Assembly: GCA_028583605.1 (NCBI GenBank)
Contig: CM053331.1
Coordinates: 8,308,091-8,372,090, forward strand
Length of the DNA stretch: 64,000 nucleotides
Direction of reading: 5' to 3'
Source of the DNA: Dastarcus helophoroides
Lineage: Eukaryota; Arthropoda; Insecta; Coleoptera; Bothrideridae
The position numbers and the translations under genes are program-made. Every line of letters begins with the position of its first letter. Position 1 is the first letter of the stretch. Under the pieces are notes generated by a model, which saw nothing but the letters and a program-made list of their open reading frames with translations, had not been told where the DNA came from and did no database searches. Below, piece after piece: positions 6,604-61,831 of the stretch.

Positions 6604-6865
6604 GAAATTGAAATACAAATCTTGTCCCATGAAACCAAGAAAGATTAAAAAACACATCAAAGGTTGCTCTAACGCGTTTCGATAGCCAAGCTATCATCTT
6701 CAGAGAGATACACACTCTGAAGCTGTATCTCTCTGAAGGTGATAGCTTGGCTATCGAAAAGCGTTAGAGCAACCTTTGTTGCGTTTTTTAATCTTTCTTG
6801 TTTTCAGGGGACAAGTTTTGTATTTCAATTTTTGAAGATAACCAAAGACCAGTCCGCTCCACCAA
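6604..6865. mobile_element. PLE-derived inverted-pair hairpin, locus 1
   Basis: Two copies of the Penelope-type terminal repeat sit head to head around a short spacer (about 6711-6725). Each arm contains, in ribozyme sense, a hammerhead-like motif, then AGAGCAACCTTTGTTG, AATCTTTCTTG, GGGGACAAG and TTTGAAGATAACCAA. The minus-strand motif at 6667-6707 is intact: CTCT, CTGAAGA, helix GATAGC/GCTATC, GAAACGCGTT, AGAG. The plus-strand motif at 6729-6769 has CTGAAGG and an altered GAAAAGCG, so it is decayed. No protein is encoded. It is assigned to the PLE by identity with the ends of the GIY-YIG copies at 46330-46980 and 61173-61831. Confidence 0.85.
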
Positions 6866-8030
6866 AGAAAAAAGAAAAAAGAAAAAAAAAAAGAAAGGAA
6901 AAAGAAGAGAAAAAAGAAAACAAGAAAAAAATCTGATTCTTATAACCGGTAATTTCTACTTTATCAATTATTTTTCGTTTCCGTCCCCCAGCATTTGATT
7001 TTATTAAGCGGTTGATTCGATAAACCGGAGATTCTATTAATTTGCATCTACTATATTTAGCCCTTTTGGAATATTTTGCTTTTTATTTTAAACTAGAACG
7101 ATTGTTCAAAGTTTCGACTTTTTGAAAATTCTGGCACTCTTAAAGAATTCGACTCTTTTTTGAAAATTTGTCAAAACTTTCATTTTTTTCCCAAATTTAC
7201 AACTTTTAAAAGTGGAATTTTTTTGTCTAAGTTTTAATCTTTTTAAAAATGCTTTAAAAATTTGGGCCTTTTGAAAATATTTGAATTTTATTTAAAAATG
7301 AAGTCATTTTAAAGAATTCTACTTTTTTTTGGTGGAACGGACTGGTCCTTGGTGATCTTCAAAAGCTGAAATACAAATCTTATCCTTTGAAACCAAGAAA
7401 GATTAAGAAAAGAAATAGTGTATCTCTCTGAAGATAATAGCGTGTCTATCGAAACGCGTTAGAGCAACCTTTGATGCGTTTTTAAATCTTTCTTGTTTTC
7501 AGGGGACAAGTTTTGTATTTCAATTTTTGAAGATAACCAAGGACCAATCCGCTCCACCAAAAAAATGGAAAAAGAAAAAAAAAAGAAAAGAAAAAGAAGA
7601 GAAAAAGAAAACAAGGAAAAGTCTGATTCTTATAACCGGTAATTTCTACTTTATCAATTATCATTCGTTTCCGTCCCCCAGCATTTGAGTTTATTAAGCG
7701 GTTGATTCGATAAACCGGGGATTCTATTAACCTGAATCTACTATATTTCGACCTTTTTGAATATTTTGCTTTTTATTTTAAACTAGAACGATTGTTAAAA
7801 GTTTCGACTTTTTGAAAATTCTGGCACTCAAAGAATTCGCCTTTTTTTTGAAAATTTGTCAAAACTTTAATTTTTTTCCCAAATTTACAACTTTTAAAAG
7901 TGGAATTGTTTTGCCAAAATTTTATTCTTTTTAAAAAATGCTACATACTTTAAAAAATTGGACTTTTTGAAAATATTTGGATTTTATTTAAAAATAAAGT
8001 CATTTTGAAGAATTCTACTTTTGGTGGAAC
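6640..8030. repeat. Tandem duplication of ~690 bp including a PLE arm
   Basis: The block with TCTGATTCTTATAACCGG at 6932 recurs at 7622, an offset of 690 bp. The following GTTTCCGTCCCCCAGCATTT, GCGGTTGATTCGATAAACC and AACTAGAACGATTG also recur. Each unit runs from one PLE hairpin to the next, and each carries an A-rich AAGAAAAAAG tract. The duplication is direct and copies differ by scattered changes and small indels. Confidence 0.85.
7329..7560. mobile_element. PLE-derived inverted-pair hairpin, locus 2
   Basis: The left arm starts at GGTGGAACGGACTGGTCC and is cut short after AAGAAAGATTAAGAAA, so it lacks its ribozyme motif. The right arm carries CTCTCTGAAGATAATAGC, GCGTGTCTATC and GAAACGCGTTAGAG, then continues to GACCAATCCGCTCCACC. 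Helix II in this arm is weakened by substitutions. It lies at the junction of the 690 bp duplication. Confidence 0.8.
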
Positions 8031-8410
8031 GGACTGGTCCTTGGTTATCTTCAAAAACTGAAATACAAATCTTGTCCTTTGAAACCAAGAAAGATTAAGA
8101 AACACAACAAAGGTTGTTGTAATGCGTTTCGATAGCCAAGCCATCATCTTCAGAGAAATAGTGTATCTCTCTGAAGATAATAGCTTGGCTATCGAAATGC
8201 ATTATAGCAACCTTTGTTGTGTTTTTTAATATTTTGTTAAAAAACACAACAAAGGTTGCTCTAATACGTTCGAATAGCCAAGATATCATCTTCAGAGAGA
8301 TACTGTATCTCTCTGAAGATAATAGATTGGCTATCGAAACGCGTTATAGAAACCTTTGTTGTGTTTTTTAATCTTTCTTGGTTTCAGGGGACAAGATTTG
8401 TATTTCAAGA
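8021..8410. mobile_element. Nested double PLE hairpin, locus 3
   Basis: There are two successive inverted pairs. The first pair spans about 8023-8232, and the second begins with AAAAAACACAACAAAGGTTG near 8236. Four hammerhead-like motifs are therefore present in alternating orientation, most with substitutions in helix II or the CGCG helix III. The outer right arm ends abruptly after TTTGTATTTCAA near 8408. The sequence does not show whether it arose by insertion of one hairpin into another or by template switching. Confidence 0.8.
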
Positions 8411-10688: not shown

Positions 10689-10881
10689 ATTTTTTTGGTG
10701 GAACGGAATGGTCCTTGGCTATCTTCAAAAATTGAAATACAGAACTTGTTCCCTGAAACCAAGAAAGATTAAAAAACGCAACAAACGTTGTGTTTTTTAA
10801 TCTTTCTTGGGTACAGGGGACAAGTTCTGTATTTCAATTTTTGAAGATAACCAAGGACTAGTCCTTTGCTCCGTTGCACCA
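10689..10881. mobile_element. Short PLE-derived hairpin lacking the ribozyme, locus 4
   Basis: The outer parts of two inverted PLE terminal repeats are joined directly at CGCAACAAACGTTGTG. The left arm starts GGTGGAACGGAATGGTCC and the right arm ends at GCTCCGTTGCACC. The central hammerhead-like motif is missing from both arms, so this copy is either internally deleted or a shorter derivative. A similar short form is at 52039-52155. Confidence 0.8.
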
Positions 10882-12757: not shown

Positions 12758-13062
12758 AGGTTGAAATACAAATCTTGTCCCCTGAAACCAAGAAAGATTA
12801 AAAAATACAACAAAGGTTGCTCTAATGCGTTTCGATAGCCAATCTATCATCTTCGGAGAGATATCTCTCTAAAGATGATAGATGGTTATCTTCAAAAATT
12901 GAAATACAAATCTTGTCCCATCTTCAGAGAGATATCTCTCTTGGCTATCGAAACGCATTAGAGCAACCTTTGTTGTGTTATTTAACCTTTTTTTGATTTC
13001 AGGGGACAAGATTTGTATTTCAATTTTTGAAAATAACCAAGGACCAGTCGGTTGCACCAAAA
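12758..13062. mobile_element. Rearranged PLE hairpin, locus 5
   Basis: Inverted PLE terminal repeats are present, but the centre is scrambled. After the left motif, an outer-arm segment (GGTTATCTTCAAAAATTG) is repeated at about 12885-12920. A second truncated motif (AGAGAGATATCTCTC) then follows. The right arm runs through AGAGCAACCTTTGTTG and GGGGACAAGATTTGTATT to GACCAGTCGGTTGCACC. The order suggests template switching or nested insertion. No protein is encoded. Confidence 0.75.
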
Positions 13063-17210: not shown

Positions 17211-17600
17211 TTATAACAATTCGAGGTTACAGGTTGTCAGCATCGACCACAAAGAGATAAGGCGAGAGTTAACCTTCTGGTTGTTGCTTATTTTGTGATC
17301 ACAGTATGGCTCTGGGCCGACGAGAGGTGTGATTGAGGCCTCTTTTGCGAGTCTATCTGCCTCTTCGTTCCCTTCTGTGCCTTGATGCCTTGGAACCCAC
17401 ATCAAAATTACTTTGTTGTTTGCAGCCAGTTGTTTCAGGGATTGTTCGCATTCCCAGGCCATTTTTGACTCGGTTATTAAAGACTTTAGAGTCTTTAAAG
17501 CAACCTGGCTATCCGAAAGGATATAAACCTGTGCGTTTTTGAGAACTTTTTGAAGGCAGTATTTTGCACACAGAGTTATAGCGAGCTGCTTGGAAAATTG
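17211..17600 (-). pseudogene. RNase H domain of a non-LTR retrotransposon (R1/I group)
   Basis: The open frame at 17211-17462 can be extended upstream without a stop to about 17600. Reading 5' to 3' on the minus strand it gives AITLCAKYCLQKVL, VYILSDSQVALKTLKSL, then VILMWVPRHQGTEGNEEADR and LAKEAS. This is the second half of a type I RNase H: the catalytic Asp of the SDSQ motif and the Asp of the EEADRLA motif are both present. The first two acidic residues would lie upstream, where the frame is lost. In the intact family this domain degrades the RNA strand during target-primed reverse transcription. The fragment is truncated at both ends and non-functional. Confidence 0.85.
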
Positions 17601-17639
17601 TGGGAGTGTTTCCTAGGGGTTCAGAGGGTCTTAAATTAG

Positions 17640-27209: not shown

Positions 27210-28003
27210 GTCACACCTAAGTATCTGGGACACTGGTTATGGCGTAGCCTTTTGTTTCAGAATATCACGTTTAGTTCTTTGTTCGTCATTCTGTTATTGA
27301 GCTGAAATATGCTGACTTCGGTTTTCCCAGGGCTCGGGCATAACCTCCAGTTCCCATAAAGTAGTTCTAGCTTTTTCAGATTCTTGGTAAGTTTCTGCTC
27401 ACCTGCTTGGAATGTCTTGCTCTAAGTTACTATGACTAGGTTGTCGACGTAGCTGAACTTTAGGAAAATAGTGGCAACTATATCACTAGTGAACAAGGTA
27501 AATAAGAGTGGGGCCAAGATGCATCCCTGTGGGAGGCCGTTTTTTATGGTATAGGATTGACTTATGGTTTCACCGACAGTGACCTGACAGAGATTTATAA
27601 GCATGTTCTCCATTAGTACTGTGGTCTTAGAGCTCCGGGCGGTTTGATTTACTTTATGTAACAGCTCATCCGTCCAGACAGTATCGTATGCCACGGTCAA
27701 GTCGGTAAATGCCTCTAAAGTTTTCATATTTTTTCAGAAGCCTGCTTCTATAAGTGATATTAGGGCAAGCACTTGCTCAGAGCAGCTTCGTGTTTCTCGA
27801 AATCCTGCTTGGTGTTGTGGAGTTATAGAGACAATTGTTTGATATAATCTATTGTACAGGAGTCCCTCGAGCATCTTGTAGCAGATGTTTAGCAATGCAT
27901 TTGGGTGGTGGCACGCCGGGTGGTCTTTGGGTTTCGCTGGTTTAAGGATTGCAATAGTTCTCGCTACCTTAAATTGGTGAGGGACTCTTCCCCTTTGTAA
28001 CAT
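27210..28003 (-). pseudogene. Non-LTR ORF2 reverse transcriptase domain (Jockey/I group)
   Basis: Minus-strand frame 27734-28003 holds the start of the RT: FKVARTIAILKPAKPKD, then LLNICYKMLEGLLYNRLY and HQAGFRETRSCSEQVLALI. Frame 27422-27727 continues with FTDLTVAYDTVW (catalytic Asp at residue 9 retained), NGLPQGCILAPLLF (template-gripping motif B) and YVDNLVIV at residues 93-96, in place of YADD. The second Asp of the catalytic pair is therefore lost. The thumb follows as QKLTKNLKKLELLYGNW and LCPSPGKTEVSIFQLNNR to about 27215, with a stop at 27425. In active relatives this enzyme copies the element RNA at the nicked target. Confidence 0.9.
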
Positions 28004-28660
28004 TTCTTTGCAAAGTTGTAATAGCCATTGTCGTGCTCTCTGCCCTAGGTGTTTAATGACCTCTGGGAATATGCCATCTATTTCGGCGGCTTTCCCGTTT
28101 TTGAGAGATTTGATTATTATATAAATTCCCTCCTTGGTGAAAGGTAGTGATAGACCAGGGTCCTCTATTTTTTCCCTTTTGTTATATCTGAGTTGTTTCT
28201 TTATTTCTTTTTTAGAAGCAGGATCAGTTTGTATGCTTTCTGCGCGATTCTTTATGTGTCGCGATACTTAAGTGGCTGTTATTTTGGTTTTCTGGTTTAG
28301 AATGGCTGTAGTAGCTTCCAGCTTTCTTAAGAGAGAATATGCTTTTCAACTGATTTTGGTAAAATTCAGATTTTCCGTTGTTTTGGCCCATCTTTCTCTG
28401 CGTGTCTAGTTTATGGATTGTAGAATCCTGTCTCCCATGGATAGGTTGCCCGTTCCTTGGTACTCTTTGTGAAGCTGTTCTGCCTCCTTGTTCCAGCAGA
28501 GGGTGTAAACTTACCGAAAACCTCGGGGAATGTGGCGTTTCGCCGCTGCAATTATCATTTCGACAAATCGCAGGTGGAGTCGTGTGTATGTTTAAATCCA
28601 TCTCTTTTCGGTATAATTCCCAGTTCGCCTTTCATAGGTTTCACTGTTCTTCCGTTCTTA
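28004..28660 (-). pseudogene. Linker between endonuclease and RT of the same ORF2, frameshifted
   Basis: The segment between the EN and RT domains is the most damaged part of the element. The minus frame 28224-28601 contains a few recognisable pieces and several frame changes. Downstream the other frames give text leading into the LLQRGRVPHQFKVA start of the RT. No separate gene is supported here; the plus-strand frames at 28378-28714 are antisense shadows. Confidence 0.7.
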
Positions 28661-31895: not shown

Positions 31896-32384
31896 TCTCT
31901 AAATTTGACCTTAGAAAAAAACATTATTTATGGCTCTCCTCGACATTTTCTTTTTTTTGTGAATATAATTTTTGAAAAATGTTTTTTTTTTTGTATTGAT
32001 TATTCATTTGAAAATTTTGATGTTTTTTCTAAAAATTTCAAGTTTTTTAAAAATTTTTAAATTTTGATTATTTTTAAAATTTTAGTTTTTTTTTTAATTT
32101 CTAGAATCCCACTTTATTTTAAAATTATTGATTTTAGAAATTTGACTTTAAAATTTCTACTTTTTTCAAAATGTTAAAATTTTCTCAATCCTGTTTCATA
32201 AATCTGGCTTTTTTTAGTTTCAACTTTTTGGAAAATTTAGACCATTTTGAATTGCTTAAATTTGAAAAAAGTGGAAACTTTAAAATGTTGAAACAATGTG
32301 TAAAAAAGGTCAAGATCTAAGATTTTTGTCAAATAAATAAAAATTTAAGAAAAGTGAAAATCGAATGATTAAAATATTTTGATA

Positions 32385-32565
32385 TGCAAGAAGAATGTAA
32401 CCTAGACTACAAATTCATGCAGCCCTTCAGGCGTGTATAGTGAATCATAGGTAGCTGAACTACCAACAGTTGAAACACTGCCACCTAGCGAAGCGGTTGC
32501 TCTCTAGGAGAGTTCCCAGAAGAATCTAATAAATGTTCAAACCTATTGGTCTGTGCATTATAAAA
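32385..32565. repeat. Hammerhead-repeat fragment, ribozyme deleted (copy D)
   Basis: This matches the 5' half of the ~370 bp hammerhead repeat on the plus strand, from GCAAGAAGAATGTAACC through AGTGAATCATAGGTAGCTGA to GAGAGTTCCCAGAAGA. At about 32523 it jumps to ATCTAATAAATGTTCAAACC, which belongs to the opposite orientation. The ribozyme core between these points is absent. It appears to be a collapsed head-to-head pair. Confidence 0.8.
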
Positions 32566-35500
32566 TATTTTGAAATTAATAACTTTTAAAAATCGAATAG
32601 TTTAAAATTTTCCAAAAAAGGCAAATTTCTTTTGAAGCGCCGAAATATTTTTCGGAATAAGTAACAATTTCAGAAAGTCAAAGCCTTTAAGGCAGTCATA
32701 ATTTTGAAAAAAATTGAAATTTTTGAAAAAAATTGAAATTTTTGAAAAAAATTGAAATATTTATAGAAAATCGAAATTTTTAACATTAAAAAAAAATAAC
32801 GAATTCTCGAAAATATATTGAAATTGTTAAAAACATTTGAATTTTTCAAAATAAATGTTTTTCAAAGTATAGGTAAAAATTTGGAAAAAAGTCGAGATTT
32901 TAAAAATGGTGTAAATATTTTAAAAATATGTTGCCAAAAATTTTGCAAAAAAGGCCAAAGTTTTGAAAAACCAGGATATTCTAAAAAAAATGAGAAATTT
33001 TATAAAAAGTGATAATTTTGAATTGTCAAAGCTCCTAAAAATTAAAAATTAAAAAAAGTCAAATTTTTTCGAAAAATCAAAATGTTTTTTAGAGTTGGTA
33101 ACATTTCGAGAAACTTAAAATCTTTAAAATAGGCCAAACTTTAAAAATGGTTACAATTTTCATAAAAAATCTCCTTTTTCAACATTTATAAAATTATACA
33201 AATTTCGAGAGTAAAAATTGTGTAAAAAGGTGGAATATTTCAAAATGTAATACAAAATTTTGAGAATGGGTCAGAATTTTTAGAAAGATGTAGACATTTT
33301 CAGAATAAGTGAACATTTTTGGAGTCCACTAAGTGGAAATTAAAAAAAAAAATAGAAATTTTGGAAACAGGAAAATTTTGTATTTCGAAAAATTAAATGA
33401 AAACTTTAAATTTTTAAAAGAATATTAAAATGCTGAATCGTGAATTTTTTCAAAAAAAGTCGAGATTTTGAAAATGGTGTGAATATTTTGAAAATATGTA
33501 GGTAAAAATTTTGAAAAAAAGGCTAAACTTTGGAAAAACAGGATATTTTGAACAAAAAACAGAAATTTTGTAAAAAGTGAGAATTTGAATTATCAGAGTT
33601 TCCAAAAATTAAAAATTAAAAAAAAGGTCAAATTTTTTTGAAAAATCAAAATACTTTTTGGAATTGGTAACATTACGCAAAACTCAAAATCTTTAAAAGG
33701 GCCAAACTTTGAAAATGGTCAAAAAAGTCGAGATTTTGAAAATGGTGTGAATATTTTGAAAATATATAGATAAAAATTTTGAAAAAACGGCCTAATTTAA
33801 AAAAAAAACAGAATATTTTGAAAAAATTAGAAATTGTGTAAAAAGTGATAACTTTGATTATCAAAGTTTCTAAAAATTAAAAAAAGCCAAATTTTTTCGA
33901 ACAATCAAAATGTTTTTTAGAATTTGTAACATTTCGAGAAACTCAAAATCTTATGAAAGGACCAAACTTTGAAAATTCTCGAAATTTTCATAAAAAATCT
34001 ACTTTTTCAAGATTTATAAAAATATGGAAATTTCGAGAAAGTTAAAATTGTGTAAAAAGCTGAAATCATTCAAATATAAAAACAAAATTTTAAAAATGGA
34101 TCAAAATTTTTAGAAAGATATAGACATTATTTGAATAAGTCAAAATTTTGATAAGTCATCTAACTTTGAAAAAAGTGAAAACTTTTAAGAGAGTTTCGAA
34201 AAAATCTGAAATTTTTACAAAGAAATCGAAGTGTTTGAAATTTAAAAAAATAACAAATTCTCAAAAATAAATTAAAATTGTTAAAAACCCTTAAACTTTT
34301 CAAAATATAGGTCAAAATTTAAAAAAAAGTCGTGATTTTGAAAATGGTGTGAATATTTTGAAAATAGGTTCATAAAAATTTTGAAGAAAAGGACTACATT
34401 TCGAAATCAGGATATTCTAAACAGAATAGAAAATTTTGTAAAAAGTGATAATTTTGGGTTGTCAAAGTTTGTAACAATTTTAAAAAAATCAAATTTTTTC
34501 GAAAAATCAAAATATCTTTTAGAATTGGTAACATTTCGAGAAACTCGAAACATTTAAAAAGGCCAAACCTTGAAGATGGTCAAAATTTTAATAAAAAATC
34601 TACTTTTTCAACATGTACAAAAATATGCAAATTTCTAGAAAGTCAAAATTGTGTAAAAATTGGAATATTTCAAAATATAAAACAAAATTTTGAGAATGGG
34701 TCAGAATTTTTAGAAAGATGTAGCCAAATTTTGATTAAACGACTTATTTTGAAAAAAAGTGGAAAGTTTGAAAAAAGTAGAAATTTTGAAAACAGGAAAA
34801 TTTTGAATTTCAAAAAATTAAAAGAATTTAAACTTTTATTAGAACATTAAACTGATCAAATGTCGATTTTTTTCAAAATAAGTCCAAAATTTGAAAATGA
34901 TGTAAATATTGTGAAAACATGTAGATATAAATTTTGAAAAAGGGCCAAATTTTGTAAAAATTGAATATTTTGATAAAAATGAGAAGTCTTGTGTGATAAT
35001 TTCTAATTATTACAGTTTTTAAAAATTAGAACATAAAATAAAGTCAAGTTTTTTCGAAAATTCAAAATATTTTTTAGAATAGGTAACATTTCGAGAAACC
35101 TCAAAATTTTTAAAAAGGGCCAGACTTTGAAAACGGGCCAAACTTTAAATGTGGTCAAAATTTTCGTTAAAAAAATCTCCTTTCTCAACATTTACAAAAA
35201 TATGCAAATTTCAAGAAAATCAAAATTGTGTAAAAAAGTGGAATTTTTAAAAATATAAAACAAAGTTTTGAGAATCGGTCAGAATTTTTAGAAAAATGTA
35301 GACATTTTTAGAATAAGTAAAAATTCTGATAAAACGTCCAATTTTGAAAAAAGTGGAAATTTTGAAAAACGTATAATTTTGAGAACAGAAAAATTTTAAA
35401 TTTCGAAAAATTAAGAAAACTTCAAATGTGTAAAGGAATATTAAAATACTTAAGCGTGGATTTTTTTCAAAAAAATTCCAATTCTTCCGGAACGAGTTGA

Positions 35501-38670: not shown

Positions 38671-38859
38671 TATGCAAGTAGAATACAACCTAGACTGCAA
38701 ATTAATGCAGCTCTCCAGGCCTGTATAGTGGTGAATCATAGGTAGCTGAACTGCCAACAGTTTAAACACTGCCACCTAGCAAAGCGGTTGCCTTCTAGGA
38801 AAGTTCCCAAAAGACAAGACCAATAGGTTTGAACATTTATTAGATTCGAAGTTTCCAAA

Positions 38860-38900
38860 CCAAAGACCGGTTTCGATCTCGTTAGATCTCTTCAGTTTGG
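38860..38900 (-). ncRNA. Type I hammerhead ribozyme core, array A monomer 1
   Basis: In ribozyme sense: helix I strand CCAAA, core CTGAAGA, helix II GATCT-AACG-AGATC, core GAAA, minimal helix III ACCGGT (its first A shared with GAAA), cleavage base C, helix I return strand TTTGG. All invariant core bases (C3, G5, A6, G8, A9, G12, A13, A14) are present and the cleavage triplet is GUC. Helix III has no loop, so efficient cleavage would be expected in dimeric RNA, which fits the tandem array. Confidence 0.85.
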
Positions 38901-39235
38901 TATATCCAACTTAAATGCTAACAAAGGCTCCGACAGGTAAGTACTAAAGAGTCAACGAACGTCAAAGGTGTGACTCTCAGACTACCACCACCTATTGGTC
39001 CATAAAGAAAACTATGGCCATCGCCAACAATGTCGTATGCAAGTAGAATACAACCTAGACTGCAAATTCATGCGGCCTCCAGGTGTGTATAGTGAATCAT
39101 AGGTGGCTGAATTATCAACAGTTAAAACACTGCCACCTAGTGAAGCGGTTGCTCTCTAGGAAAGTTCGCAGAAGACAAGGATTCTAATGCACAGACCAAT
39201 AGGTTTAAACATTTATCCGATTCGAAGTTTGGAAA

Positions 39236-39276
39236 TCAAAAACCGGTTTCGATCTTGTTAGATCTCGTCAGTTTGG
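39236..39276 (-). ncRNA. Hammerhead ribozyme core, array A monomer 2
   Basis: CCAAA, CTGACGA, GATCT-AACA-AGATC, GAAA, ACCGGT, cleavage base T, TTTGA. The catalytic core is intact. The outermost pair of helix I is lost (TTTGA in place of TTTGG). Confidence 0.85.
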
Positions 39277-39604
39277 TATATCCAACTTGAATGCTAACAA
39301 ATGTTCCGGCAAGTAAGTACTAAAGAGTTCACAGACGTCAAACGTGTGACTCTTAGTACTATCACCTATTGGTCCATAGAGAAACTATGGCCATCGCCAA
39401 CAATGTCGTATGCAAGTAGAATGCAACCTAGACTACAAATTCCTGCAGCTCTCTAGGCATGTATAGTGAATCATAGGTAGCTGAACTACTAACCGTTGAA
39501 ACACTGCCACCTAGCGAAGACGTTGCTCTCTAGGAAACATTTCCCAGAAGACAAGAATTCTAATGCACAGACCAATAGGTATGAACATTTATTCGATTTG
39601 GAAA

Positions 39605-39645
39605 CCAAAGACCGGTTTCGATCTTATTAGATCTTGTCAGTTAGG
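39605..39645 (-). ncRNA. Hammerhead core with lost G8, array A monomer 3
   Basis: CCTAA, CTGACAA, GATCT-AATA-AGATC, GAAA, ACCGGT, C, TTTGG. The base corresponding to G8, whose 2'-OH acts in catalysis, is A. Helix I also has a mismatch. This copy is expected to be inactive or strongly impaired. Confidence 0.8.
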
Positions 39646-39897
39646 TATATCCACCTCGAATGTTAACAAATGTTCCGACAAGTAAGTACTAAAGAATCAA
39701 CGAACGTCAAGCGTGTGACTCTCAGACTACGTCCATAGAGAAAACTGTGGCCATCGCTATGATTAAGTTTTACTAGAAATTAGATTCGAAATTTTATGAT
39801 TTTTGCAGTGAAAACTTCTTTAATCGCCTTAAGCGACTGTTGTTAGGGAGAGAATTTTAAGGTATTTCAAAAAAAGATGTTTTCAATGTACTGATTT

Positions 39898-40560: not shown

Positions 40561-40689
40561 CTTACTCCTACAATATTCTAAGTTAAATTGTCGAAAATGT
40601 GTATGTTATAATTGTTTAAATTGTGTTTTAATTTGATTGTTATTATTTCTGTTCTCTTTGAACTTTCATTGCGCGAGACTATACACGTT

Positions 40690-41118
40690 TTGGTGCATCG
40701 GACTGGTCCTTGGTTATCCTCAAAAATTGAAAAACAAATCTTGTCCCCTGAAACCAAGAAAGATTAGAAAACACAACAAAGGTTGCTCTAACGCGTTTCG
40801 ATAACGAAGCTATCATCTTCAGCGAGATACTAACTCAACTTAATTAGTATCTCCATGAAGATGATAACTTAGCTATCGAAAAGCGTTAGAGCAAACTTTG
40901 TTGTGTTTTCTAATCTTTCTGAAACCAGGAAAGATTAGAAAACACAACAAAGGTTGCTCTAAAGTGTTTTGATAACCAAACTATCATCTTCAGAGAGATA
41001 CTAACTCAACTTAGTATCTCTCTGAAGATGATAGCTTGGCTATCGAAACGCGTTAGAGCAACCTTTGTTGTGTTTTCTAATCTTTGTTGGTTTCAGGGAA
41101 CAAGATGAGTATTTCAAT
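40690..41118. mobile_element. Double PLE hairpin with four hammerhead-like motifs, locus 7
   Basis: Two inverted pairs follow one another: the first spans about 40690-40920 and the second 40921-41118. The outer left arm starts at TTGGTGCATCGGACTGGTCC. The best motif is plus-strand 41018-41058: CTCT, CTGAAGA, one extra T, GATAGC-TTG-GCTATC, GAAA, CGCGT, T, AGAG. The other three have substitutions in helix II or helix III. The spacer between arms is CTAACTCAACTTAGT-like in both hairpins, so the second probably arose from the first. No coding capacity is present. Confidence 0.85.
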
Positions 41119-43865: not shown

Positions 43866-43904
43866 GGTCTCTGAATAAAAAGTAACACGTAACAATTTTT
43901 GTTT

Positions 43905-44071
43905 AAAATACAAATCTTGTCCCGTGAAACCCAAAAATATTAAAAACAAATCAAATGCTGCTGTTACGCGTTTCGATAGCCAAGGTATCTCTTCAGAGAG
44001 TATCTCTGTGAAGACGATAGATTTGTATAACAATTTTTGGAGATAACCAAGGATCAGTCGGTTCCACCAAA
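43905..44071. mobile_element. Shortened PLE hairpin, locus 8
   Basis: The left arm starts at AAAATACAAATCTTGTCCCG and contains a recognisable CGCGTTTCGATAGCCAAG motif in minus sense. The right arm is cut, retaining CTCTGTGAAGACGATAG, then ATTTGTATAACAATTTTTGG and GGATCAGTCGGTTCCACC. Most of the right ribozyme half is missing. It abuts the retrotransposon fragment at 43440-43865. Confidence 0.75.
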
Positions 44072-44336
44072 ATTTTTCGTGATTGTTATTTTGACATGAA
44101 GAAGTGTTTCGCAAGCTATTTGTCAAATATCGTCGTTTTCATTAGGCAATAATATAGCAGTCTCTTTTTATTGTGAGCTTAGTTTTCTTTCCAGTGATCT
44201 CGGTTTTTGATTTAGTCTTTGGGCGAATTTTCGCTTCTTATTGCTTTTTTCTTCGTCTTCTACTATGTGCTACACTATAGGGCTTGTCTGGTCACCTATG
44301 ATGTAGATCCTTTACCAGAGATTTTACTTTACATAG

Positions 44337-44579
44337 ATCTTCTTCTTCTCCTTCTCCTTCTCCTTCTCCTTCTCCTTCTCCTTCTCCTTCTCCTTCTCCT
44401 TCTCCTTCTCCTTCTCCTTCTCCTTCTACTTCTCCTTCTCCTTCTCCTTCTCCTTCACCTTCACCTTCTCCTTCTCCTTCTCCTTCTCCTTCTCCTTCTC
44501 CTTCTCCTTCTCCTTCTCCTTCTCCTTCTCCTTCTCCTTCTCCTTCTTCTTCTTCTTCTTCTTCTTCTTCTTCTTCTTT
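44337..44579. repeat. Hexanucleotide/trinucleotide polypyrimidine microsatellite
   Basis: An almost uninterrupted pyrimidine strand of about 240 bp consists of CTTCTC hexamers, with two short interruptions (near 44428 and 44457), followed by about ten CTT triplets. The poly-Leu plus frame and the Glu/Gly minus frame come from this repeat and are not proteins. A long mirror-symmetric polypurine/polypyrimidine tract can form triplex (H-DNA). Confidence 0.95.
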
Positions 44580-46259: not shown

Positions 46260-46329
46260 GACCCCAGATTCATTGTAACTGGGTGTGGTAGCCAAGTTTG
46301 AAATTTGAGGTTAAAAATCCTCTATAATT

Positions 46330-46980
46330 TTGGTGAAATGGACTGGTCCTTGGTTATCTTCAAAAATTGAAATACAAATCGTGTCCCCTGAAACCAAGAA
46401 AAATTAAACAACATAACAAAGGTTGCTCTAACGCGTTTTGATAGCCAAGCTATCATTTTCAGAGAAATATTGATACCTGCGATCTCTTAAAATCAGACTG
46501 AAGGAGCATTTGGTTGTTTTTGAGGTACGTAAAAACTGAGAAGGCAAGTGTAGCTCCACATGCTATTGAATTACATCATAGGATAGATAAGAATACTCAA
46601 CTGTTAAGAGTAGTTAATAAGAATTCAAAGTTAAATGTTACGTTGCATGTGAAAGCTTAGCCATCCATAAGGCTGGAGACAACCTTATGAGTGGTGGCGC
46701 TGGGCAGTTAGCCATTCATCTCTGTTAAAAACAGTTAAGGTTGATAGATAAGGAATTGAGACACTACGACGTGTATGATTAGATGCACATGCGCATTCGG
46801 ATGTGGTCGATCATGCACGAAGTGAATATTCTTAGTATATAAGGGTCAGTTTTAGGTTAGGTGTTGGTATCTTTTTGAAGATGAAAGTTTGGCTATCGAA
46901 ACACGTTAGAGCAACCCTTGTTGTGTTTTTTAATCTTATTTGGCTTCAGGGAACAAAATTTGTATTTCAATTTTTAAAAA
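46330..46980 (+). mobile_element. Decayed Penelope-like element copy with both ends
   Basis: The left terminal repeat (46330-46474) lies inverted to the right terminal repeat (about 46862-46980). Between them, 46480-46755 is a broken GIY-YIG endonuclease end. The reading frame gives RLKEHLVVFE-like text, then after frame changes KASVAPHAIELHHRIDKNTQ, LLRVVNKNSKLNV and PSIRLETTL. These parallel KEHLAHL, SSVARHAFELDHRIDNN and LRVVNKNYMLN of the minus copy at 61394-61825. A TATATAAGGG word lies at about 46838. The right ribozyme motif is degraded (TTTTTGAAGATGAAAGTTTG, GAAACACGTTAGAG). The GIY and YVG segments are missing. Confidence 0.85.
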
Positions 46981-51760: not shown

Positions 51761-52038
51761 AAATGTCTAATGTCTAAACCGAACACACTTTTGGATACCA
51801 AACTCCTTGGGATATATTTGCGCCCGCTGGTTCCCAACCTTTGTCTTTGTCTTTGTTTCAATAGTAAAGTTTTTTTAAACTTTGTTAGAAATTTCTGGAT
51901 TTTTTTTTTGAAATTAGGAGTTTTATCCTTGGTACTGGAAACTTCTATTTTTTCCTGTAATGTTTTGATTTTAATGTCAAGGTGTGAAATGAAAATATTT
52001 AGAGATCTGTAAATAGAGCATTTTACTTTTAATTTTTT

Positions 52039-52155
52039 TTGGTGGAACAGACTGGTCCTTATCTTCAAAAATTGAAATACAAATCTTGCCCCCTGAAACC
52101 GAAAATCTTTGATTCTTTCTTGGTTTCAGGGGACAAGATTTGTATTTTAATTTAT
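52039..52155. mobile_element. Short PLE hairpin lacking the ribozyme, locus 10
   Basis: GGTGGAACAGACTGGTCC, CTTCAAAAATTGAAATACAA and CCCCTGAAACC are followed within a few bases by TTCTTTCTTGGTTTCAGGGG and ACAAGATTTGTATT in inverse orientation. Arms are about 45 bp and the motif-containing centre is absent, as at 10689-10881. Confidence 0.85.
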
Positions 52156-53089
52156 TTTTTAATCAACATTTTCTCTCCTTTTCTCGATATTTCAGTCCAA
52201 ACCTGCCTGCTACAAATTTAAATAAATTTAAAATTTTTATAATAATTATTTCTAATTTAAGCTTTAAGTGTTCCTTAAGAAAAAAAAAGATCAAAGTGAA
52301 AAAAGGGACGCTTCCAACATTTTTCTTTTTAAAAAAATTGATCTTTTTAGATTTTGCCTTTAAGTTCTTAATAGTTATGTTTAAAGCCAAATTTCGAATA
52401 AAACTTTGTAAATTTCAAATAATGAGAAAATTTCGGAAATAACAGTATTTTTCAAAAGTGAAAAATTTGATCTATTTTTTCTTTTAGAATATGATATTAA
52501 AATTAAGGCTTCACTTAAATTTATTTTAAATTTTTTAATTTTTTTCCTAAAATGTTTCACAGAGAGCCAACATTTTGAAAACAAAATCAAAATTTAGAGG
52601 TTACCAAGTTTTCTTATATCCATTTTTTAACAGAACTGCTTTATAAAATTATTTAACATTTAGTTCTATGAAATGCTCTATTTGCATTAAAAATAGATGT
52701 TCTCGAAATTCTGAAGACATTTTCAAGATTAGTTGCAACAAGAACCAAACTTAGCTATTTCAAAAACCCAATCTCTGAAGTTGACTTTCCAAAATAACTT
52801 TAGTGTGCACTTTTTTGCGAAAGAGTTCCAGACTAAATTCGTAATGTGGAAAATAAAATGCCAATATCTGCAGAAAAAAAGTTAAAGTTTTGAGTTTTCA
52901 AAATTTTAGGAAAACAAAATGCGAAGTTGTGACAATATTTGAAAAAAAGGACTTAAATTTACAGTCGAGATATGGCGAATAAAGTAAGTTTTCGAGATTA
53001 AAACGAAATTGCACAAATAAAATCCAACATCTTTAGAAAAGTTTAAATTTTGGAAAAACAACAATAGTGAAAAGTTTGAATATTAGGAA
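52156..53089. other. AT-rich DNA, no gene
   Basis: Lys- and Phe-rich frames on both strands (for example 52140-52442 plus and 52163-52390 minus) overlap antisense and lack motifs. Nothing else is supported. Confidence 0.5.
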
Positions 53090-53294
53090 AATGCAAGAAG
53101 AATGCAACCTAGACTACAAATTCATGCAGCCCTCCCAGGCGTTGTATAGTGAATCATAGGTAGCCGAACTACCAACAGTTGAAACACTGCCACCTAGCGA
53201 AACGGTTGCTCTCTAGGAGAGTTCCCAGAAGACAACGATTCTATAATGCACAGACCAATAGGTTTGAACATTTATTAGATTCGAGGTTTGGAAA

Positions 53295-53335
53295 CCAAAT
53301 ACCGGTTTCGATCTTGTTAGATCTCGTCAGTTTGG
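53295..53335 (-). ncRNA. Intact type I hammerhead core, array B monomer 1
   Basis: CCAAA, CTGACGA, GATCT-AACA-AGATC, GAAA, ACCGGT, cleavage base A, TTTGG. Both five-base-pair helices are fully paired and the catalytic core matches consensus. Farther out, GTTGG and CCAAAC can extend helix I beyond an internal loop, where natural type I ribozymes make the stabilising contact with loop II. Confidence 0.9.
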
Positions 53336-53671
53336 TATATCCAACTCGAATGCTAATAAATGTTCCGACAAGTAAGTACTAAAACATTCACAGGCGTCAA
53401 GCGAGTGACTCTTTATTACTACCACCTATTGGCCCATAGAGAAACTATGGCCATCGCCAACAATGTCGTATGCAAGAAGAATGCAACCTAGACTACAAAT
53501 TCATGCAGCTCTCCAGGCGTGTATAGTGAATCATAGGTAGCTGAACTACCAACAGTTGAAACACTCCCACCTAGCAAAACGATTGCTCTCTAGGAGAGTT
53601 TCCAGAAGACAAGGATTCTATAATGCACAGATCAATAGGTTTGAACATTTATTAGAATCGATGTTTGGAAA

Positions 53672-53712
53672 CCAAATACCGGTTTCGATCTTGTTAGATC
53701 TCGTCAGTTTGG
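53672..53712 (-). ncRNA. Intact type I hammerhead core, array B monomer 2
   Basis: It is identical in the 41 nt core to monomer 1 of this array: CCAAA, CTGACGA, GATCT-AACA-AGATC, GAAA, ACCGGT, A, TTTGG. The sequence just upstream in ribozyme sense is altered by the inversion point near 53720. Confidence 0.88.
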
Positions 53713-53741
53713 TATATTTATTAGCATTCGAGTTGGATATA

Positions 53742-53782
53742 CCAAACTGACGAGATCTAATAAGGTCAAAACCGGTATTTGG
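53742..53782 (+). ncRNA. Hammerhead core in inverse orientation, G12 lost
   Basis: CCAAA, CTGACGA, GATCT-AATA-AGGTC, AAAA, ACCGGT, A, TTTGG. Helix II still pairs through a G-U wobble, but the GAAA is AAAA, removing G12, the proposed general base. It is expected to be inactive. Confidence 0.8.
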
Positions 53783-53835
53783 TTTCCAAACCTCGAATCT
53801 AATAAATGTTCAAACCTATTGGTCTGTGCATTATA

Positions 53836-54659
53836 GTATTAGGAAAATGTCAAAAAAAGAACCTTCATATAAATAATTGTATAAATTATGAGTTTCCCAA
53901 TTTATATACCTTCCTGAAATCTTTAAAAATGTCAGTAAGTTAGGTTGATGCCAATATTTTGACAGTAAAGCTAAATTTTCTGCAAGAAATCAAGATTTCT
54001 CGAAAAATTTTGTAGTTACAACAACACTCAAGAAAAAATAAACTAAAATCTAAAAGTAATATTAAACGGGGCATTTTTTCTATTTAATTGTTTTAGGTGA
54101 AATAATACAAATTGTTAATTTAAGCTTTGCATTTCCAACCCTTGTTTGTATTTGAATTGCCGATTTCGCTGTTTGCTTGAATTTTAGCTTTACGAAAACG
54201 GGCAAAAAACTAAACCTTCGATTAGGTTCAAGTGATTTTATTTTAAAAATCCGTTTGCCAAGCTTTGTTACTTTTATGAAAAATAGTCCTTTAAAATTAT
54301 ACTTAATCTACTAAAGACCATATATTAAGTAAAAAACACTCGACATACAATGAGCTTTGGAAAATGTTGGGAAAAATGAACTTTTTACTTAAGTACATAC
54401 GAATAAAGTTTTGAAACGAGTCTTTCAGTTAAAAATTCACAAAAATTGACAAATACCCAGATTTCTCCAAACTGAAGACAAAGAAATTCTCCAGTGTGGA
54501 AGTAGTTGGAAACAAAGCACCCGAACATTAGAAGTTATTGTCCAAGTATACCGAGTTGAGAAATGAAGTTTACGATTAATTTTCGAGGTAAGGCGATTAA
54601 ATTTAATATTCCATAAAGTTAAACAAATTCATAAGCAAAACAAGAAGCAGACGTTAGAG
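53836..54659. other. Low-copy AT-rich DNA
   Basis: This is not satellite-like. No open frame, TIR, structured RNA or gene signal is recognised. Confidence 0.45.
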
Positions 54660-55335: not shown

Positions 55336-55351
55336 GGAACATATTATTTTT

Positions 55352-55605
55352 CTGGTGCAACAGACTGGTCCTTGATTATCTTCAAAAATTGAAATACAAA
55401 TCTTTTCCTCTGAAACCAATAAAGGTTAAAAAACGCAACAAAAGTTGCTCTAACGCGTTTCCATAGCCAAGTTATCATCTTCAGATACATATTTGGTACT
55501 ACAGTATCGCTCTGAAGATGATAGCTTGACTATCAAAACTTGTTGGAGCAACCTTTGTTGTGTTTTTTAATCTTTCTTGGTTTCAGGAGACAAGATTCGT
55601 ATTTC
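55352..55605. mobile_element. PLE hairpin, locus 11
   Basis: The left arm starts GGTGCAACAGACTGGTCC and holds a minus-sense motif (CTCTAACGCGTTTCCATAG, CCAAGTTATCATCTTCAG). The spacer is ATACATATTTGGTACTACAG. The right arm has GCTCTGAAGATGATAGC, TTGACTATC and AAAACTTGTTGGAGCAAC, then the usual TTTGTTGTGTTTTTTAATC to GTATTTCAAATT. Both motifs are mutated in the GAAACGCG part, so neither is likely to cleave. Confidence 0.85.
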
Positions 55606-57880
55606 AAATTAGGAACAGCTTTTTCCGAAATTTTGATTTGTTTATAGGAACTTCATTTAAAATATAAATCGGAAAGGTTCAGAGAAAAGATTTAAATTTT
55701 GAAGGAAAAAGTCCAAACAGTAAAATTGAAAATTGCGAGAATAAAATCTGGAAAACAAGTTGAAATGGAAAGAAAATAAAATCATTATTTCAGCTTTAAT
55801 TAAATTTTGCATTCAAAGTCAAAATTTCTGGAACAAGTGCAAATTTAATTCGAAATGTTGGATAAAAATAGAAAAAAAAATGTAAAATAAATATAAAAAA
55901 AAAGAATAGTGGTCTATAATAACATCTCAACTCATTTAACTTTGCTTTTTTTAAATTTCAACTATAAATTCCAATTTGTTACTCAAAATCTCAACTAAAA
56001 ACCTATAAGGCTGACGAAAACAAAGGGACTAATTTTTTTTAAATCAAGTCAATGGTTAAAATTTTGTCCTTCGACAAAAAAATAACGTTTTAACATGTAT
56101 AAATTTTAAGATTACAGAGCAGATTTTAGGCAAAAAAAAACTAAAACTTGCTGGTTTACTGTAGGAATTTTGGAAAAAAAAAACCTTCCTTCTAATTTTG
56201 ATACTTTTTAATTTTTTCATAAAATTTCGAATGATTTTAAACTTTAAAATTTGCAAATCTTTAGAATTCAGGACATTCTCTAATCATATTCAATTCTTTT
56301 TTTCAATTTGAACAGTTAGAATTTTCCAAAGTTTTTGTTTTATGTTCAATCCACTCAATCCTATTATGCCTTCAAGGCACCGCAAGTAGGATGCGGAAAC
56401 AAGGATAGATGACGATGAACCGTCTTCTTAAACCAGGAGAGGTAGTGATTTTTGGGGAAAATCTCCTTCGGTAGCGAGTTTAGTTGCTTCTCTTCTAAGA
56501 GGAACTACGATAAGTAGTAAAAGTCGGATAAAAGGACGAAGTTTTGTAATGGATAAGTTGGAATTTAAAATGGGAAATATTTTTATAAAAAAAATTGAAC
56601 TTTTGAGAAAAACACCAGCAATTCGAATATAAAGTCAAAATATCCATTTTTTTACAACAAGCTATTTTTCGAAATTGTTACTGCTTCTTTTTCTAATTTT
56701 AGAAATAAACAAACACATTTTAAATGTAATGTAGGAAAATTAAAGTATCGATAAAAAATTGGAATTCGATAAATTAAAAATTTCTCGAAATTTCGACCTG
56801 CATCAGTCGACATTTCATTCGAAGTTTAAACTCCATAAATTGTAAAGCATATGATAAAATTAAAAAAAAAATAAGAAATTTTGATAGTTTAAATTTAAAT
56901 TTCTCAAAAGAAAACAAAAAATATTAGAAATTTAGTTACAATTTTTTGTTATTAAAATTTCAAATTTTTTTTATTTTCTTGAAATTTTGGGGTAAAATGT
57001 AAAATAAATATTTTGTAGAAAAATCGAAATATCGATAAAAAGATTGGAGTTTAATAAATTAAAAATGTCTCTAAATTTCGACCTGTATCAGTCGAAATTT
57101 CATTTAAAATTTAAATTCCATAATTTGTAAAGTACATAATAAAAATAAAAGAAAGATAAGTAACATTGATAGCTTACACTTAAAATTCTTAAAAGAAAAC
57201 AAAAATTATTCGAAATTTAATTACATTTTTTTCGACATTAAAATTTAAAAATTTCACTATTTTCTTGAAATTTTGCAGTGACAATTGAGAATTTTTTAGA
57301 ATAGTAATATAAAAATTTTGAGTTTAAAGGTTAAATTTTACAAGAAACTGTAAGAATTTTAAGGTTCATCTTTAATTTTGAATTTGTCCCACTTCATTTA
57401 AAGTTTTGAATTTGACGTTTCAGGAGATATCGAAATTTTGACATAAAAATCGAAAGAACCTTTGAGATGGAAGGACAGTGTATACATATAAAGTACAAAA
57501 ATACGAAGCATTTCTTGGAAAGAAGGTGGGTACAATTATTTAGAATTTTGCAAAAAAACCTTAAAATTTTGATAAAATATTAAATTTTGATAAAATATCA
57601 AAATTTAATTTTTTTCTCAGCATCTCTTTATTAAGATTATATTTAAACCATTCTTATTCAGTTTTGTATTTTTCTTAGAAATGTGCCTTAGAGAAAAAAT
57701 AATCGAAATTTTAATGCTTGAGTTAAATTACAAAAAAATTATAAATATCCAGTATAAAAATAAAATTTCAGGATTAAGGTTTTGAAAAAATACTATTTTT
57801 TTGTTTTGGAAATCTCTGGTTTTTAAATCTCTACTTTTTCTGAAAATTTTAGTTTAAAATGCATTTGTTTTTTTCTATAG
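55606..57880. repeat. AT-rich degenerate DNA with an ~300 bp near-repeat
   Basis: Much of this is A-rich low-complexity sequence. Two related blocks occur: AAATTTCGACCTGCATCAGT near 56791 and AAATTTCGACCTGTATCAGT near 57073, an offset of about 282 bp, with similar flanks. A separate non-repetitive patch at about 56345-56540 (GCACCGCAAGTAGGATGCGG, GGTAGCGAGTTTAGTTGC) is of unknown nature. No gene is recognised. Confidence 0.5.
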
Positions 57881-58245
57881 AATCAACGAATGTCCTTCGC
57901 GTGACTCCAAAGCACCGCCACTTATTGGTCCATAGATAAACTGTGGACAAGTCCAACAAGTGACGTAGGCAAGTAGAATGCAATCTAGACTGCGTAATGC
58001 AGCCCCCTAAGCATGCATAGTGGATCATAAGTAATATTTATTTGCCGGAATATTTATTAGCATTCGAGTGGGATACACCAAACTGACCAGACCTAATAAG
58101 ATTGAAACCAATCTTTGGTTTCCAAATTCCGAATCTGATAAGTGTTCAAACCTATTGGTCTGTGCACTAGAATCTAGACTTTTGGGACCTTCCTAGAGAG
58201 CAACTGATTTGCTAACCATTTGTGGTTCAACTGTTGGTAGTTCGA
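57881..58245. repeat. Isolated hammerhead repeat with internal inversion (copy C)
   Basis: From 57881 to about 58032 the repeat reads in the array A orientation (AATCAACGAATGTCC, TATTGGTCCATAGATAAAC, AGGCAAGTAGAATGC). It then turns around at ATATTTATTAGCATTCGAG and continues in the opposite orientation through a mutated core to CCTATTGGTCTGTGCAC and GCTAACCATTTGTGGTTCAA. The same word follows the inversion in array B, so inversions there and here may share a mechanism or ancestry. Confidence 0.8.
58078..58118 (+). ncRNA. Decayed hammerhead core, G8 lost
   Basis: CCAAA, CTGACCA, GACCT-AATA-AGATT, GAAA, ACCAAT, C, TTTGG. G8 is replaced by C and both helix II and helix III have mismatches. It is inactive by inspection. 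Confidence 0.8.
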
Positions 58246-61393: not shown

Positions 61394-61825
61394 TTATCTA
61401 TCAACCTTAACTATTTTTAACAGAGATGAATGGCCTAAAGGTCCAGCGCAACCATTCATAAGGTTGTTTCCAGCCTTATGGATGGCTAAGCTCTCACATG
61501 CATTTAACATATAATTCTTATTAACTACTCTTAACAATTTAATATTATTATCTATCCTATGATCTAATTCAAAAGCATGTCGAGCCACACTTGACTTCTC
61601 AGTTCTTCCGTACCTCAAATGAGCCAAATGTTCTTTGAGTCGGATTTTAAGAGATCGTCTAGTTTGTCCGACATACTTTTGAGGACAATCCCTACATGAA
61701 ATTTGGTAAATACCAGACTTATCTGTTTGCTCTACTTTATCCTTTAAACTACCCAAAAGCGAATTTAATTTTCCATTAGAAGTATAAATAACCCGAAAAC
61801 CCTGATTTCGTAAAATTCCACCCAA
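61394..61825 (-). pseudogene. Penelope-like element GIY-YIG endonuclease domain, 5'-truncated
   Basis: This 143-codon minus frame encodes the C-terminal nuclease of a PLE. GIY lies at residues 38-40 and YVG at 51-53 (the usual YIG), followed by QTRRSLKIRLKEHL with the conserved Arg and His. Cysteines at 44 and 47 precede YVG, and SSVARHAFELDHRID supplies two histidines spaced by five residues, as in the zinc-finger-like motif typical of PLE nucleases. The end, SLAIHKAGNNLMNGCAGPLG, carries the catalytic-type region terminus. In active elements this enzyme nicks target DNA for priming. The frame is intact here, but the upstream reverse transcriptase is absent: sequence beyond about 61831 is unrelated A-rich DNA. 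Confidence 0.92.
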
Positions 61826-61831
61826 ACCCTA

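Follow-up and report, generated by a model that had tools for sequence, protein, structure and literature searches.

A window of 64,000 nt from the beetle Dastarcus helophoroides contains three direct repeats, each with a hammerhead motif (38671-39757; locus A), that an initial annotation read as a retrozyme. This locus raises the question of how such a non-coding element enters new genomic sites. The helper of animal retrozymes was left open in 2020, when LINEs and Penelope-like elements (PLEs) were both considered and PLEs were called a strong candidate (PMC7229834). In the portion of that account drawn on here, Cervera and de la Pena favour PLEs because both kinds of element have type I hammerheads, are arranged in tandem and co-occur (PMC7229834). 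The insertion scars described below are a more direct link to PLEs than this co-occurrence argument.

A three-monomer array with type I hammerheads

Locus A comprises direct monomers at 38671-39035, 39036-39408 and 39409-39757, with the minus strand as the RNA strand. The monomers start at 38671, 39036 and 39409, the longest repeat family in the array shows spacings of 376 and 369 nt, and Tandem Repeats Finder reports a period of 376 (score 1355); the initial annotation was thus right about the three monomers of about 370 bp and their positions. Unit lengths of 365, 373 and about 377 nt, and a GC content of 0.41, fit the published size and GC content of metazoan non-LTR retrozymes. The claim that no protein is encoded was also borne out: the unit has no ORF, and in none of the six frames does it run for more than 56 codons without a stop. 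No LTR-like sequence was apparent around the locus in a general repeat analysis. The monomers share 79-84% pairwise identity, and no convincing target-site duplication flanks the array, whose flanks share a 6-bp off-boundary match of a length reached by about one-fifth of shuffled pairs. Locus A is an old, diverged copy of its family.

On the minus strand, each monomer contains CUGANGA, stem II (GAUC/GAUC), GAAACCGGU and H. This is a type I hammerhead with a loopless helix III formed by a palindrome of six bases, ACCGGU, just as first annotated. A pattern search located intact cores (CUGANGA..GAAACCGGUH) at 38865-38895 and 39241-39271. The core of monomer 3 reads CUGACAA and therefore has a changed G8, from which this hammerhead is expected to be inactive. 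The names G8 and H17 follow the hammerhead numbering.

All three motifs match the Rfam model Hammerhead_HH9 (RF02275; HH9). In a scan of 1,901 bases, the scores are 29.8 bits (E 6.3e-5) for monomer 1 (38842-38913; H17 = C), 29.7 bits (E 6.8e-5) for monomer 2 (39218-39289; H17 = U, one broken helix I pair) and 26.9 bits (E 5.3e-4) for monomer 3 (39587-39658). Together with the pattern search, these matches confirm one minus-strand motif per monomer and two complete cores, in monomers 1 and 2. A covariance-model check, as had been proposed, found every motif, but at scores below gathering; no Rfam match in the whole window attains its gathering score, which for HH9 is 52 bits. A scan of all 64,000 bases returns the same three matches at E 0.0021, 0.0023 and 0.018, outranked by miRNA-family matches that lie mostly on PLE foldbacks. 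The commonest hammerhead type in the genome likewise falls below 52 bits, scoring 34.4 bits in 4 of 4 loci scanned, which is the best score obtained. The core, stem II and two-part helix I align with HH9 end to end, whereas the helix III loop is missing here. Because the letters of helix I are largely different between HH9 and the motif, as is one stem II pair, the alignment favours a real structure.

By itself, the loose pattern CTGANGA-GAAA-TH is weak evidence, giving 39 overlapping rows in the window against a mean of 11 in shuffles, of which 1 in 100 was as high. A chance origin of the motif is excluded mainly by the genome count: a 30-nt core occurs in 3,288 exact copies in the 538.9-Mb genome, and the reversed control pattern in 0. 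Purifying selection on the core within copies did not reach significance; among 33 copies, after removal of one exact match from each locus to correct for the way in which loci had been picked, 13 of 363 core positions and 111 of 1,974 other positions differ (p 0.13).

The loopless palindrome in helix III suggests that cutting should be best when two copies pair, as they could in a multimeric transcript. Helix III is also loopless in the axolotl HHR_Amex1, whereas efficient cleavage by single motifs is described for most invertebrate hammerheads (PMC7229834). PLE hammerheads are described as acting as dimers (PMC7761336, in part). Minimum-energy folds of the unit pair core nucleotides across the junction and do not display the catalytic form; when folded as a circle, the monomer exceeds shuffled sequences in stability (z -5.6).

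The family is a non-LTR retrozyme, a class already known. As far as the consulted sections go, metazoan members have type I hammerheads, non-coding units of 170-400 nt, low GC content (below 45-50%), tandem arrangement and duplications longer than 4 bp (PMC7229834). The present family is like them in its type I hammerhead, its short non-coding unit, its low GC content and the presence of a PLE in the same genome. The proposed retrozyme organisation is accordingly supported by features of the DNA: the hammerhead type, a unit of 373-377 nt that encodes no protein, its repetition in tandem, a GC content near 41%, family duplications longer than 4 bp and the accompanying PLE. Plant LTR retrozymes are also non-coding, non-autonomous and hammerhead-bearing, but the same source, within the sections used, gives them type III hammerheads, LTRs and 4-bp duplications, in contrast to the type I motif and 12-13 bp duplications found here (PMC7229834).

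Two start sites at the ends of retrozyme insertions

Insertion ends were mapped in the window and in 40 regions of contig C1, each surrounding a core match taken from the top of a list of 100. The reference unit was window 39036-39408, with position 1 at TATGCAAG, and RNA was taken on the strand of the hammerhead. Of 63 insertions found, one was cut by a region end and dropped, leaving 62 that were scored. The sample, like the replicate below, is biased towards young copies, since an intact core was the basis for picking every region and a single contig supplied them all.

Outer ends at which cDNA must have started fall mostly at two places in the unit, S1 (unit 1; RNA ..UUGCAUA) and S2 (unit ~147; RNA ..GUGCAUUA). 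Among 95 such ends, 32 are at S1, 42 at S2 and 21 elsewhere, so that 74 of 95 use intervals that make up 9% of the unit, the share expected by chance. Outer ends of the opposite kind are spread (n = 29; 4 near S1, 2 near S2). Blocks longer than one unit read through the internal start sites; at least one unit is held by 24 of 103 blocks and at least two by 4 of 103. One end of locus A coincides with S1, and the opposite end is free and falls at unit 362.

The tandem array, which the initial annotation presented as the organisation of the element, describes locus A and is not the sole form of the family. Head-to-head foldbacks account for 33 of the 62 scored insertions, and the other 29 are one-way, 22 of them starting at S1 or S2. 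Adjacent block pairs (n = 40) are head-to-head in 33 cases, direct in 7 and in the reverse orientation in none. Ten foldbacks have at least one end at neither site and, like the 21 starts mapped elsewhere, are exceptions to the two-site rule. The remaining 23 have both ends classified, and 22 of these are mixed, with S1 at one side and S2 at the other (one is S2/S2), where about half would be expected to be mixed (p 2e-6). Foldbacks of this frequency with S1 and S2 at opposite ends set the family apart from the metazoan retrozymes, for which only tandem repeats are described in the portion of the 2020 account cited (PMC7229834). Among the open-licence PMC papers listed by literature searches, none was seen to report mixed two-site ends in retrozymes.

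Target-site duplications accompany these ends. They are mostly 12-13 bp long, fall between 12 and 15 bp for 15 of the 22 foldbacks of mixed type, and reach at least 10 bp in 21 of 62 insertions, compared with about 0.2% of shuffled flank pairs. A replicate used 20 more listed places, mostly ones with just one core, for which short regions were enough, and gave 24 insertions, one of which was cut and dropped. Its starts lie at S1 or S2 in 27 of 35 cases. Both ends could be classified in 7 of its 12 foldbacks, against 5 with an unclassified end; all 7 are mixed, and 6 of them have duplications of 12-13 bp.

Three further family loci in the window, along with the PLE copies and the PLE-type signature at insertion ends, were absent from the initial annotation. 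Locus B (53091-53836, both strands) joins a tandem arm that starts at S1 (53091-53717; RNA minus) to an inverted arm that starts at S2 (53716-53836; RNA plus). It holds hammerheads at 53277-53348 (minus), 53668-53716 (minus, truncated by the junction) and 53729-53800 (plus, core changed), and is flanked by a 13-bp duplication at 53081-53093, whose final bases are common to the element end, and 53837-53849. Locus C is a short foldback (32383-32560) with an arm from S1 (32383-32523), an inverted arm from S2 (32522-32560) and a 13-bp duplication at 32370-32382 and 32561-32573. Locus D (about 57875-58243) is an old foldback of the family, inverted at 58032, and neither of its ends coincides with a start site.

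The predicted hammerhead cut, at unit 205/206, is not where insertions begin or end: among 103 blocks, none starts and none ends within 3 nt of this position, although about 1.9 starts and as many ends would be expected there, and 72 of the blocks continue through it. Because blocks cross the cut while their ends avoid it, most templates would have been uncut or re-closed RNA, judging from the genomic copies. As to whether tandems derive from a single circle, monomers within one insertion share their derived changes partly, not wholly (6 pairs compared, from 4 arrays).

When 28 of 29 monomers are folded to a consensus, S1 and S2 pair with each other and close a domain of about 150 nt. Of the 28 monomers folded singly, 14 show this pairing, where 0.65 would be expected, a nominal figure as the rows are related. 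The S1-S2 helix has no compensatory double changes, which elsewhere occur in 5 of 133 consensus pairs. From this modelled pairing, S1 and S2 may be spatial neighbours.

Penelope-like elements of the same genome

The candidate kind of helper is represented in the window by a PLE piece at 61394-61828 (minus strand), a stop-free run of 144 codons with a GIY-YIG domain (PF01541, E 6.2e-6). Its genomic relatives combine RVT_1 and GIY-YIG in one frame in 3 of 3 tested; the best 150 of 4,874 candidate relatives were scored, all with at least 98% identity. Among the 120 of 972 matches listed for the PLE protein of this genome, those ranked highest are unnamed, and the closest named proteins are from Molorchus (63% over half of the query), Aromia (58%) and Tribolium (56%). 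Other retroelement remnants in the window are an RNase H match (17211-17612, E 3.7e-10) and a weak RVT_1 match (27734-28267, E 0.0084). A 471-bp tandem repeat occupies 1-2077 (4.4 copies, 90% matches, very AT-rich DNA), and a (CTTCTC)n array of about 40 copies lies at 44339-44577.

PLE copies end in the same fashion as the retrozyme. Neighbouring PLE matches within 6 kb of each other (n = 39 pairs, some in one duplicated stretch) are divergent in 36 cases, convergent in 1 and direct in 2. In the PLE 3' region, surveyed in the same 41 sequences, 102 starts divide into 53 long, 38 short and 11 elsewhere, the long and short starts lying about 38 nt apart, which is the PLE tail. Long ends pile up at position 1 because the query began there, yet the printed flanks differ between loci. 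Among 29 PLE foldbacks, 22 have one long and one short end, 3 are homotypic and 4 have an unclassified end, so 22 of 25 are mixed (p 5e-5); when an amplified copy at L043 is collapsed, 20 of 23 are mixed (p 1.5e-4). At that place (L043:1019-1575), a whole short PLE foldback with its flanks recurs in three copies 232 nt apart, a satellite-like array amplified later. Duplications at insertions of this PLE are about 9-11 bp long: only 1 of the 22 mixed foldbacks reaches 12 bp, and lengths of 9, 10 and 11 bp were read by eye in three young copies.

The window contains about ten foldbacks derived from PLEs, and in most of them a long end, which includes the tail, is paired with a short one: 6605-6866, 7327-7562, 8019-8408, 10693-10872, 12761-13062, 40688-41118 (long end left, short end right), 43903-44072, 46328-46975, 52037-52153 and 55350-55610. 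Below gathering, Rfam matches several of them to miRNA precursors of plants or animals, for which their palindromes are most likely responsible as an artefact. A hairpin closing the PLE tail was considered and discarded, as it formed in 2 of 3 isolated tails and in 0 of 7 folds in context. The hammerhead-like motif of the PLE, with ACGCGU as helix III, is a pattern match only, and Rfam reports none.

A second PLE family is abundant (L025:1671-4863, L048:3742-3978), with a protein 33-44% identical to that of the first; 150 of its 2,969 candidates were scored. It could be the helper of the retrozyme. A retrozyme lies inside a second-family PLE at L025:2085-2738.

The retrozyme resembles PLEs in its head-to-head ends, its two alternative internal start sites with one per side, its duplications and its loopless palindromic helix III. 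It differs in having no ORF, whereas a PLE itself would encode RT and GIY-YIG, and in sharing no sequence with PLEs: none common to the unit and 10 PLE loci was found at E 1. Its start sites are 146 nt apart rather than about 38, and its duplications exceed those of the first PLE by about 3 bp. A rotifer Penelope copy whose ends are inverted, only one of them bearing the tail, is described in the cited part of PMC3846280, where duplications are given as 8-10 bp. A purified Penelope-type protein, PAc, cleaves the two strands of its target, extends each of them and begins synthesis at two positions inside the RNA (PMC11167929).

Probable insertion by a Penelope-type reaction in trans

We consider it probable that locus A is an old metazoan-type non-LTR retrozyme and that its family spreads by a Penelope-type reaction in trans. 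RNA of the minus strand would carry the type I hammerhead of a non-coding, non-autonomous element. An enzyme with RT and GIY-YIG domains would cut both target strands about 12 bp apart, and both target 3' ends would prime cDNA inside the retrozyme RNA, each at its own fixed position, S1 for one and S2 for the other. Joining of the two cDNAs head-to-head would give the mixed foldback, while priming by one strand alone would give a one-way, sometimes tandem copy such as locus A. We infer transcription, cleavage, a circular or uncut multimeric template and the PLE enzyme as parts of this best explanation. That insertions end head-to-head at two fixed internal sites, one per side, is the feature expected of Penelope-type insertion, and the presence of one two-site rule in both PLE and retrozyme, as read from genomic copies, supports mobilisation of the latter by what would be PLE-type machinery; the greater length of the retrozyme duplications is a feature that departs from it. 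The absence of shared sequence, the core without significant conservation, the folds that lack the catalytic form and the starts and foldbacks that use neither site also weigh against this explanation.

LINEs produce duplications of about 12 bp and inverted segments, the latter by twin priming, and so might account for the foldbacks through target-primed reverse transcription from the RNA 3' end. The weak RVT_1 match in the window is a piece of LINE-type reverse transcriptase, and LINEs are among the possible helpers named in the consulted part of the 2020 account (PMC7229834). Twin priming, however, would place the far end anywhere, whereas it coincides with the other fixed site in 22 of the 23 classified foldbacks and in all 7 of the replicate, and the starts are internal to the unit, with longer blocks reading through them. 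We therefore regard movement by LINE machinery as unlikely and already disfavoured. Self-priming of cDNA on an antisense template, instead of priming by both target strands, was once proposed for the head-to-head repeats with junction palindromes of rotifer PLEs (PMC3846280, in the part cited). Self-priming gives no reason for the second outer end to coincide with the other fixed site, or for a duplication to link the two flanks, and purified PAc extends both strands (PMC11167929), which makes this origin of the foldbacks quite improbable.

An ordinary satellite or dead repeat, amplified as DNA and with the hammerhead as a functionless relic, would suit the lack of significant core conservation within copies, the age of locus A with its one broken core and the local amplification apparent at L018 and L074. 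Dispersed copies with fixed ends and a different duplication at each site are, in contrast, those of retrotransposition insertions, and the core is exact in 3,288 places; we hold a satellite origin to be similarly improbable. A Penelope-type reaction in trans is the reading that we prefer.

These scars tie a retrozyme to PLE-type chemistry, so far a hypothesis for animal retrozymes, and they offer a test applicable to genomes: do copies end at two fixed internal sites, one per side? In the PLE, the two-site rule is a genomic read-out of the use of both target strands by PLE enzymes. The picture in which hammerhead-cut ends define the insert is called into question. More tentatively, and with somewhat less than even confidence, we suggest that animal retrozymes may be parasites of PLEs, that the closing helix of an RNA docking domain of about 150 nt might juxtapose S1 and S2 so that a dimeric enzyme could prime one strand per site and regularly produce mixed head-to-head insertions, and that the hammerhead may free, and perhaps circularise, the template without defining the inserted ends.
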